DNA of 64,000 bases from contig JAGTXK010000012.1 of assembly GCA_019096195.1 (NCBI GenBank), positions 62,001-126,000 on the forward strand. Direction: 5' to 3'. Made by a program: the position numbers and the translations under genes. Numbering within the stretch: the stretch's first letter is position 1; each line of letters begins with the position of its first letter. Positions 52,841-60,190 of the stretch are shown here, one piece after another. The stretch is from Boletus sp. NGJ. Taxonomy: Eukaryota > Basidiomycota > Agaricomycetes > Boletales > Boletaceae. The notes beneath the pieces were generated by a model, which was not told where the DNA came from, ran no database searches, and saw only the letters and a program-made list of their open reading frames with translations.

Positions 52841-53913
52841 CGGTTAGTGAAAGGATACTGTGACACATTGTCCTCTCCTTTAGCCCGTAACTTATAAGTA
52901 CTCGAACGCCTCGGGGCCGTGAAAAATCTAGAGAACCCGATTTAGGTAATCTCGGTGCTCGGAGCCTGCATGGCCTCCACCCGACTCGACTCACCCTGGA
53001 TGCCACATCACGGCAGTCTTCGTGGAAAAGGAAATAACGGGTGGTATATTCAGAGCAAGACTTGGCGTCCCCAGCTTGGCCCGAGGGCTGTAGACTCGGA
53101 AATCATCCACTGTAGAACGACCAAGCGACTATATCCGTACTGTGAGACAGAATGTCAACCAGAGTGGGCTTGTTTCCAGTCGAGTTGATGCCAAGCACGA
53201 ATCATCTTTGCTCTCTCGATGCGTCCCCCACCCGTTTCTCACGACCGACAGCTTGAATTGCCGGGTGGCTACCACACACGCAATATCTCTTGAGCGAGAT
53301 TGGCCCGATGGGTTCTGGGAACCGTTTACTTTAAGACGCGGATAACAGATGGTCTATCTGGTCGACGACTACAGGATCAGAATCAACACAGCTCAGATCA
53401 GATGAGAAGCAAGTGAATAAATTTAAACTGCAAACACGCACTGGATAGTGTGTGACGATGACTCTACCCGGCTTTCTGAATCTGTTGACATACTACGGAA
53501 GGGGCGGGGATGGTATTAGCGGTTCCTGTCGGGATCTAGTGATGCTTTCATCATGGACCTCTATTCCGGACTTCGTTTCATCTTACGGTTGTCCTCGCTC
53601 ATTATGATCCTGCAGGGAATGTATTCAATGACTGTCAACGAGGGTGAAATCAGAGAATAACCCACGCAAAGACTCGTATTTGGAGATCTGTGGTGGCAAG
53701 GTTGGGCAGGGACGTGAAGAAGACCTTTCCCGGTGCATTCAAATTCGACAGGTACCGCAGTCGGTAGTACTTCAAGCAAGCTCGGACTTGTTGGGCTTTG
53801 ATTTGTGAGTGTGTGTCCGTGTTTTGTCAAGCATGTCTAAGTGTGGAATCCTTTCTTGTGTTTTCCCTTCGCGCTCACCGACGACCACGACGGCAGCAAG
53901 AAAATATTCAACA
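52841..53913. other. Divergent intergenic region
   Basis: About 1.07 kb between two divergent starts. No gene is supported. From about 53800 on, the sequence is also present in the duplicate at 58318, so the duplication includes the 5' leader of the RRM gene. Confidence 0.5.
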
Positions 53914-55331
53914 ATGGATGACGGTACGTCTTCAGCATCAGCCCCGACGACGACGACGATTTCTGCATTCGATATTTTCTGCGGCAACAACCCGCCTCAG
54001 TAGTACCAGCACACACGTACTAGTGGTCTCCCACCGCGCTTCAGCACTTCCGTTTGAAACGACGTTGGGGATTCAGTATCTCTCCTTGTTTCTCTCTTTT
54101 GCTGGTGGTCAGCTCAAGGCTGGCGTCTCTGATACCACACACTAGCTTTCACCACCTTTTTTTTCCGTTCAACTATTGTTCAGCATATACATCCTACACA
54201 CCTCTCTCTCTCTCTCCACCAATTTCCCTGCCCCTCTCCTCCTCTCCTCACCAACCCGCCGATGAATCGACGTTGATAATTTCTCTTCCCATTTGCGAAC
54301 CCCCGTGGCGCCTTTTTTTTTTTGTCTTTCTTTGTCTTCAGCCTGGAACTCTCAAGATATTGCGCCTTCCGGAATCAGCATCCCAGCAGATGCAAATTTA
54401 AATGGTGGTCCGCCCCATGGTGACGAACCTAGCTGGAACACCGGTGGTCGGTCGCCCGGCCGTGATCGCGGTGGCGAGCTTCCCCGCCGCTCCAGCCGAA
54501 GCAGGAGCCCGGGACGCGATGACCGAGGGTACGCTTCCCTCTTTTTCTCGCTGTCCATTTCAAAATAACGTGTCCTCTTTTTTTTCTTTTACTTTGATAC
54601 AAAACAAAAATCACTCAGCGGTCGCGAGGGAGGGGGTCTCAACCCAGGGAACAACCTCCACGTCTCGGGTCTGAGCCACAAAGTCGACACGCGGGACCTC
54701 GAGCAGACCTTTGCTAAGATTGGTCGTGTACGTCTATATTTCGTTCGCGTTACTTCTTCGGCCCGCGTCTCCGGCGACGGGGGTGGGGCTGCTGACGACA
54801 GGATGTTGCTCTAGGTCAAAAAGGCGTCCGTCATGTATGATCCTCACACTCGCGAATCTCGTGGGTTCGGTTTCGTCACTATGGAGACCGTCGAGGAAGC
54901 GGATGCTGCCATCACTGCGCTGAACGCGACGGAAATCATGGGTAAAATCGTTACGGTCGAAAAGGTGACGCGGTAATGTTCTGCGTTTTGTTGTCGACGC
55001 TGATCGTTGTTGGAACATCAGGCTCGACGTGGGCGTGCACGGACACCCACCCCTGGGCGCTACTACGGTCCGCCGAAACGCCATGACTGTATGTTTGCGT
55101 CTACTTGTCAGAGGCACGATCTGAGATTGCGAAGCAGATGAGCGGCCCTATGATCCCCGGCCGTACGACAGCCGTTACTCGCGCGACTATGAACACCGAG
55201 GCGGCGGTCGTGGCGGGCGTTACGAAGACCGCCCGCGCGACTATGATCGTGGCTACCGTGATTACGACCGAGGATACGGTGGTGCACGCGACTACGACCG
55301 CGGTGCCCGCTACGATGACAGGAGGTACTAA
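53914..55331 (+). CDS. RRM-containing SR-like RNA-binding protein (Tra2-like)
   Basis: A 238-residue protein from six exons: 53914-53923, 54342-54528, 54619-54727, 54815-54964, 55022-55088 and 55138-55331. The sum is divisible by three. Exon 1 encodes only MDD and one base, and intron 1 is long (418 nt). An Arg/Ser-rich N-part ([14 protein letters not shown]) precedes one RRM with RNP2 LHVSGL and RNP1 RGFGFVTM, then a short [11 protein letters not shown] linker of the Tra2 type. The C-terminus is rich in Arg, Gly, Tyr and Asp ([14 protein letters not shown]). This layout (RS - RRM - linker - Arg-rich) is that of transformer-2-type splicing regulators. A broken duplicate lies at 58318-58990. 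Confidence 0.9.
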
Positions 55332-55519
55332 GGCCCTACACGGTTGAGTATCGACTTTGGTTTTCATTTCCAGAACCCGTAATTTTTCTTGGCCCGCGCG
55401 TTTGACTCTCTGCCTCCTGTGCTGGCATTCCTGTATGTATTCAATAAGTCGTCTATCGAGCTGAATACAATTAGCTTTGATTTTGATTTTGTGGCATGAG
55501 TGTGGGTGGTACAAGCCAA

Positions 55520-56085
55520 CTAATGTTTGGATACTCTGGACGGTGCTCCAATGCCTAGGTTCGTACTCCCTAGCATTCTCATTTGTTCCAACACTTCACC
55601 AATCTTGGTCACTTCCGCCCACCACTCACTACGCGAACTCTGATCCCGAGGTGTACCCGAAAAACCCGAACCACAACAAGACACGGGCTCAAGGAAGCGA
55701 ACTTGGGGCGCAAGCCACTGCATCCCCTTGGGCATCCCGTGGTTCCTCAGCGTAGATGATGCCGGGGTAGCCTACCTTGGCGAAACCAGTGATGGCGAGT
55801 TGGGAGGACCATTGGTGCATGGAACGGTGTTTCGTGGGGGAGATGAGGTGGTGGGAGGTGAGGAGGGCGTGATAGAGTTGGGGTTGAGAGGGTGGTGGTG
55901 CGGTGGGTGTCGGAGCCGAGCTGGATGTGGAGACAGGAGCGGGATCAGGATCGGGATCGGGGGCCTGCGGTTAGTGGAGGGTGGAAGTGAGGAGGGTTGA
56001 CGAAGCGTTCGCCCGGGGGGAGTGAGGATTAGATGAGATGGAGCTCTTCAAGTTGGTGGAAGAGGTTAGTCTGCCAGGGAAACAT
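55520..56085 (-). pseudogene. Broken duplicate of the RWD-domain gene
   Basis: It matches both ends of the intact gene at 59029-60073. The 5' part keeps MFPWQTNLFHQLEELHL, then a stop follows at once. Most of the RWD domain and the intron are deleted near 55990-56030. The 3' part resumes in the Pro/Ala-rich linker and runs to VRFLEPVSCCGSGF and RVSKH, with a further deletion near 55725 removing part of the VQTFVQNVKG region. It converges on the intact RRM gene, exactly as the intact RWD gene converges on the broken RRM copy. 56086-56473 beyond it holds nothing I can support. Confidence 0.85.
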
Positions 56086-58990: not shown

Positions 58991-59028
58991 TATGATTTTG
59001 TGGCATGAGTGTGGGTGGTACAAGCCAA

Positions 59029-60073
59029 TTAATGTTTGGATACTCTGGACGACGTTCCAATACCTAGGTTCGTAACGAGTATTTCCCTCCCTCGCATCCT
59101 CATTTGTTCCAACACTTCACCAATCTTGGTCACTTCCACCCACCGCTCACCACGCGAACTCTGATCCCGAGGTGTAACCGAAAAACCCGAACCACAACAA
59201 GACACGGGCTCAAGGAAGCGAACTCGAAGCGCAAGCCACTGCATCCCCTTGACGTTCTGGACGAACGTCTGGACGGCATCCCGTGGGCCCTCAGCGTAGA
59301 TGATGCCGGGGTAGCCTACCTTGGCGAAACCAGTGATGGCGAGTTGGGAGGACCATTGGTGCATGGAACGGCGTTTCGTGGGGGAGATGAGGTGGTGGGA
59401 GGTGAGGAGGGCGTGATAGAGTTGGGGTTGAGAGGGTGGTGGTGCGGTGGGTGTCGGAGCTGAGCTGGACGTGGGGGCAGGAGCGGGATCAGGATCAGGA
59501 TCAGGGTCGGGGGCCAGCGGTTGGTGGAGGGTGGAAATAAGGAGGGTTAATAGTTCGTACACGGGGAACCTAGCATGATTGTCACAATATCACCACTGTC
59601 GCACAAGTAACAAAAGGAAAGAAAAAAGGAAAGCAAAAAGACAATGATTTCGATTTCCATGACACTTACGCACAGGCGTCGTCGATCTCGGCGGACCGAG
59701 CACGAATCTCGGTTTGCCATCGTTCTTGAGCGTCACGGGAGACATGGTCGCCTTTGACGCTTACCGACGCGGCTGCATTGGCTGATGAGTCGGGGTCGGT
59801 GATGTTGGTACACGGCGGTAACTCGACCTCGAAAGAAATGTGAGCGGCGACGACATATATCTGAAAGTGTGCCTGACAAGGCGGATGTGTGAGCGAGGCG
59901 AGCACAGCGTCGTCAAGTCCACCAGCGTCCATAAAGGCGTCGAGGAGGGAGGACCATATGGTAAGGTCTTCTGGGGGGGAGACAAAGACGAAGTGTTCGC
60001 CCGGGAGGAGTGAGGATTGGATGAGATGGAGCTCTTCGAGTTGGTGGAAGAGGTTAGTCTGCCAGGGAAACAT
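59029..60073 (-). CDS. RWD-domain protein with DUF1115/Prp3-C-like end (RWDD2-like)
   Basis: A 314-residue protein from two exons, 60073-59670 and 59569-59029. The start is MFPWQTNLFHQLEELHLIQS, and the N-terminal domain has an RWD-like layout (FEVELPPCTNI). A Pro/Ala/Asp-Pro-rich linker (about 59450-59530) precedes the C-terminal domain with LYHALLTSHHLISPTKRRSM, FAKVGYPGIIYAEG, MQWLALRVRFLEPV and a final hydrophobic-acidic helix (EVTKIGEVLEQMRMRG). This pairing of RWD and DUF1115 is that of the RWDD2 family; the molecular role is not established. No lesion was seen. It converges on the broken RRM copy. Its own broken duplicate is at 55520-56085. Confidence 0.85.
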
Positions 60074-60190
60074 TTCAGACAGGGACCTCTGAAATCTGTG
60101 TGTTGGATTTTCATACTTTCAGTACTGGCATAGCATTACATAATCGCATCATAAAGTTGTCTTTCGCTTTCCTTTGCTAAGTCAACTCAC

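Follow-up and report, generated by a model that had tools for sequence, protein, structure and literature searches.

The 64,000-nucleotide stretch of Boletus sp. NGJ analysed here (the window; contig C137, positions 62001-126000) holds a convergent pair of genes twice, an RRM/SR-type gene on the forward strand facing an RWD-like/Prp3_C gene on the reverse strand. The left copy of the pair (block A) has a whole RRM gene and a broken RWD-like gene, and in the right copy (block B) the state of the two genes is reversed. An earlier note on this DNA had proposed such a duplicated two-gene segment with complementary decay, and the reading frames and lesions bear it out. The surviving genes are exactly the two outer ones, and those lost are the inward-facing copies, RWD-like-A and RRM-B. 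In our judgement the chances are about even that a single duplication event, which did not include the upstream DNA of either gene, forced this complementary survival.

Two blocks with complementary lesions

The blocks and their genes are as follows.
53800..56096: block A, with the whole RRM gene and the broken RWD-like gene; collinear match to 58323-60084, with sharp homology ends
53914..55331, + strand: RRM-A, intact; exons 53914-53923, 54342-54528, 54619-54727, 54815-54964, 55022-55088 and 55138-55331; 238 amino acids
55520..56085, - strand: RWD-like-A, broken; homologous 5' flank of only 11 bp
58323..60084: block B, with the broken RRM gene and the whole RWD-like gene; collinear match to block A
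58438..58929, + strand: RRM-B, broken; homologous 5' flank of 114-115 bp
59029..60073, - strand: RWD-like-B, intact; exons 60073-59670 and 59569-59029; 314 amino acids

The blocks lie in direct orientation, and BLASTN within the window aligns them as five collinear pieces with identities of 89-96% (E 0 to 2e-20). Of 1260 ungapped aligned columns, 63 (about 5%) differ. The comparison that the earlier note had put forward as a check, of the 53800-56100 region with the 58300-60100 region, is collinear, and neither gene is intact in both copies. The alignment also places introns in both blocks, which implies copying at the DNA level and rules out retroposition.

The six exons of RRM-A splice to an open 238-codon frame with GT..AG borders at all five introns. 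The protein carries an RRM with RS/RGG-like tails on both sides; RRM_1 (PF00076) matches residues 80-147 (E 6.2e-18) and, among solved structures, a Tra2-beta chain matches residues 47-151 (E 2.7e-12), other RRM proteins scoring higher. At most 172 of the 717 coding bases are left in RRM-B, which has suffered a 419-bp deletion (exon 2) and a 553-bp deletion covering the second half of the RRM and the C-terminal tail. Read from the alignment, its further lesions comprise an 8-bp insertion, a 1-bp deletion and loss of the exon-3 donor.

The two exons of RWD-like-B splice to an open 314-codon frame, the product of which is matched by Prp3_C (PF06544; E 2.8e-07, 31.1 bits against a cut-off of 27.6). 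No RWD domain model and no solved structure matches the protein at E<=1, and the label "RWD" denotes a resemblance that we assume, unconfirmed by a domain model, Prp3_C being the only match. When bacterial and archaeal genome contigs were scanned once with the 314-residue protein, no relative was among the 22 pattern hits. RWD-like-A retains at most 607 of 945 coding bases; it is interrupted by deletions of 438 bp (at 55998/55999) and 23 bp (at 55730/55731, causing a frameshift), and codons 19 and 151 are in-frame stops. The six-frame searches show a stop inside a match to RRM-A and inside one to RWD-like-B; these two matches overrun splice sites by a few bases.

In the searched assembly (32.8 Mb, 141 contigs) the RRM protein has 20 matches, comprising six pieces of blocks A and B and 14 RRM proteins of 28-49% identity. 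All five matches of the RWD-like protein fall inside the blocks. No close further copy of either gene was found in these genome searches, and each survivor must therefore serve alone. The earlier note suggested that each haplotype needs both halves and that the block may therefore act as a unit. Nothing seen supports this: each gene has merely returned to single copy, and no observation here ties their functions together.

Breakpoints, upstream regions and gene loss

The left limit of homology (53800/58323) lies 114 bp 5' of the RRM start codon (114-115 bp in RRM-B), and the right limit (56096/60084) only 11 bp 5' of the RWD-like start codon. As the blocks differ by only about 5%, longer homology in the flanks would be easily visible. 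In controls based on 200 dinucleotide shuffles, the best alignment score of the right flanks beyond the limit was equalled by 41 of 200 shuffles over 500 bp and by 134 of 200 over 1 kb. In addition, genome searches with 53001-53799 and 60085-60686, the DNA upstream of the two outer genes, found each of them only once.

These limits suggest a mechanism in which a 2.3-kb piece with the convergent pair would have given rise, at its own site or close by, to a second copy in direct orientation. With its ends 114 bp 5' of the start codon in the RRM gene and 11 bp 5' of that in the RWD-like gene, the piece would have left both upstream regions behind. From the resulting arrangement, RRM> <rwd ... rrm> <RWD, we infer that selection continued to act on the outer genes, which still had the upstream DNA they started with, and that the inner copies, endowed with little or no upstream DNA and conferring no benefit, accumulated deletions, frameshifts and stops. 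The additional 2.2 kb, including a gene here called gene X, would have been placed at the junction by some event. Promoter positions and the order of events would be as this scheme requires, and complementary survival would then be a consequence of the geometry of a single event rather than of two independent coin-flips. Under independent random loss a complementary outcome is expected with a chance of 1/2 and the survival of both outer genes with a chance of 1/4; the latter is certain if upstream DNA is needed.

The DNA between the blocks contains the following.
56097..58322: unduplicated stretch; genome search finds itself and one 60-bp piece elsewhere, with no partner after block B
56474..58132, - strand: gene X, decayed-looking, with frame changes and a lost central segment relative to its paralogue

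The one paralogue of gene X found in the genome, on contig C45, is 29-32% identical, and relative to it gene X has frame shifts and five stops where the paralogue reads on. To judge from this comparison gene X looks decayed, or may instead have an unusual intron structure. Its frames have no Pfam match; in the motifs TA-x-HV and GxDSG it resembles a trypsin-like peptidase. The stretch has no terminal repeats, the inverted-repeat score being reached by 17 of 200 shuffles and the direct-repeat score by 86 of 200. With neither terminal inverted or direct repeats nor a Pfam match for the frames, gene X was rejected as a transposon.

A tandem duplication in which both copies first worked, and each gene then lost one copy by chance, would change the order RRM-RWD-X into RRM-X-RWD and is a rather unlikely explanation. 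The many lesions of varied kinds resemble slow decay, the full coding regions of both genes are inside the blocks, and the low ratio of nonsynonymous to synonymous divergence (dN/dS) in the RRM remnant, given below, permits a spell of constraint on RRM-B. Against this, duplication of a 4.5-kb unit with gene X should have put another X to the right of 60084, where none was found, which renders a duplicated unit including X less likely; were the unit to lack X, RWD-like-A would have had at most 11 bp of upstream DNA of its own. A dispersed copy is an unlikely alternative; in this case a duplicate of the one original block would have landed about 2 kb from it, on the far side of X, and one survivor would be using a new upstream region. 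The position of X between the blocks, unduplicated, agrees with this, but the copy would have to insert beside the original and a survivor would have to acquire a new promoter, and the X stretch has no terminal repeats.

An assembly artefact, with two diverged haplotypes of a dikaryon laid side by side, is highly improbable. A difference of 5% is conceivable between haplotypes. However, the stretches 53001-53799, 56097-58322 and 60085-60686 are unduplicated, and a misjoin would repeat them; one gene of each block carries severe lesions, and the window holds other duplicates, of 73-93% identity.

Differences between blocks A and B accumulate at similar rates in the RRM exons (9/171), the RRM introns (11/302), the spacer between the genes (4/102) and the RWD-like exons (30/566). 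Pairwise comparison of the remnants in the two blocks (NG86) gives a dN/dS of 0.60 for the RWD-like gene (0.044/0.073), the kind of value that constraint on only one of the two copies should produce, and of 0.23 for the RRM gene (0.032/0.142; 55 codons, nine changes). The differences comprise 50 transitions and 13 transversions. A mutation process directed at CpG was rejected, as merely 13 of the 50 transitions are at CpG. Gene conversion between the blocks was likewise rejected, the longest identical run being 88 columns (P 0.47 with the 63 differences placed randomly).

Several observations weigh against a loss forced by missing upstream DNA. The RRM dN/dS is lower than expected had RRM-B been free from birth, although this counts only mildly, with nine changes only. 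The 114 bp 5' of RRM-B could suffice for a core promoter. Independent random loss would produce the observed outcome in a quarter of cases. With gene X between them, the blocks do not form a plain head-to-tail tandem. The control for the left flanks is weak: the best score is 24, which only 6 of 200 shuffles reach, but it occurs at a non-collinear place. Finally, an older third copy of the spacer (relic C) implies more than one event in the history of the region.

Relic C and other repeats in the window

Relic C derives from the DNA between the two genes, and the positions concerned are these.
55332..55519: spacer of block A, between the two convergent stop codons; contains the part surviving in all three copies
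63261..63424: relic C, third and older spacer copy, 84% identical, directly after a P450 gene; both gene bodies are gone

Its score of 227 compares with a maximum of 61 in 500 shuffles. A genome search with block A DNA gives six matches, all on the contig of the window and relic C among these. In the 100 columns shared by the three copies, C is distinct in 13, A in one and B in none, and all three differ in one. The 13 columns that set C apart identify it as an older branch, meaning that the pair was copied here earlier.

A candidate fourth relic of 64 bp, at 79962-80025 in numbering continued downstream of the window (L008:5962-6025), was considered weak and is not counted. Its match to the RRM 3' spacer scores 65 with block A (shuffle maximum 59) and 57 with relic C (maximum 55), and the score of 28 with block B is reached by 381 of 500 shuffles. 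This piece sits just after a paralogous P450, as relic C sits after the P450 of the window, and the P450 and the spacer could have been copied together. The P450 gene of the window (PF00067, 61095-63232) has an 83% identical paralogue downstream of the window (L008:3678-5811), and further partial copies of its upstream region are found near C137:148523-152143. Segments 4433-6592 and 7623-9795 are direct duplicates in tandem with 93% identity along 2.2 kb, and each is similar, in the reverse orientation, to the P450 gene at 61.1-63.2 kb. The P450 clusters and the intron-rich genes would by themselves suggest a fungal, probably basidiomycete, source of this DNA.

Other repeats are located to the left of the blocks. 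The region 33315-42000 contains the direct repeats 35754-36857/40877-41954 (89%), 34975-35671/40108-40771 (81%) and 33315-33864/36916-37463 (81%), and this multi-copy region may show the same type of decay. Inverted paralogues are present at 42826-44049 (+) and 51769-52782 (-), about 73% identical, with frames of 537 and 462 amino acids that have no Pfam match. The translations reveal a short in-frame tandem repeat in the 537-residue frame (43508-43778) that is missing from the inverted paralogue. A frame between these paralogues (49414-50058) has a sub-threshold match to histidyl-tRNA synthetase.

Relation to known modes of duplication and loss

The closest known system is tandem duplication with non-random loss, described for mitochondrial genomes by Lavrov et al. 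2002, in which promoters and polarity set which copies die (PMC3751894). As in that system, the position relative to working promoters would fix the survivors, and gene order changes (PMC3751894). The mitochondrial cases involve whole genomes and shared polycistronic promoters, whereas the present case involves 2.3 kb of nuclear DNA in which each gene has its own promoter and the relics can still be read. The adjacent genes are duplicated in direct orientation and have left pseudogene relics, though with 2.2 kb between the copies; head-to-tail adjacency is absent, the unduplicated 56097-58322 intervening. Because X separates the blocks, the locus is not a strict member of tandem duplication with loss. 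The homologous upstream DNA of the lost copies, which may lack a working promoter, amounts to just 11 bp (RWD-like-A) and 114 bp (RRM-B). Tentatively, the locus may represent a nuclear duplication with geometrically forced loss, in which the inner copies were dead on arrival and gene adjacency was changed in one step.

The duplicate, the pseudogenes and the altered gene adjacency are also features of tandem duplication and random loss as treated in PMC5569537, from which the present case differs in that loss here may be non-random. The earlier note had classed the locus as divergent resolution. Complementary loss after duplication is indeed shared with divergent resolution, or reciprocal gene loss (PMC5896889), but in its usual sense the label applies to lineages that keep the single working copy of a gene at different places, a pattern that one genome by itself cannot display; that process concerns one gene, several lineages and hybrid effects, and here two genes are affected in one haplotype. 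Duplications of small segments irrespective of gene boundaries are a familiar phenomenon, and copies may miss 5' parts or promoters (Katju review, PMC3449122). Unlike the incomplete duplicates of that review, both genes of the pair are cut at their upstream ends, one failing per block. Three further papers serve as background only (PMC4503668, PMC2876123, PMC2134927).

The finding in itself is modest, with two genes that are each single-copy again. It offers a small and readable example of how local duplication followed by decay can change the gene order of a nuclear genome. Were the geometric interpretation true, many apparent cases of "reciprocal loss" among neighbouring genes would need neither chance nor selection between copies, and such losses would be predictable from the position of breakpoints relative to upstream regions. 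If general, this would amount to a rule that predicts the surviving duplicate from the breakpoints alone.
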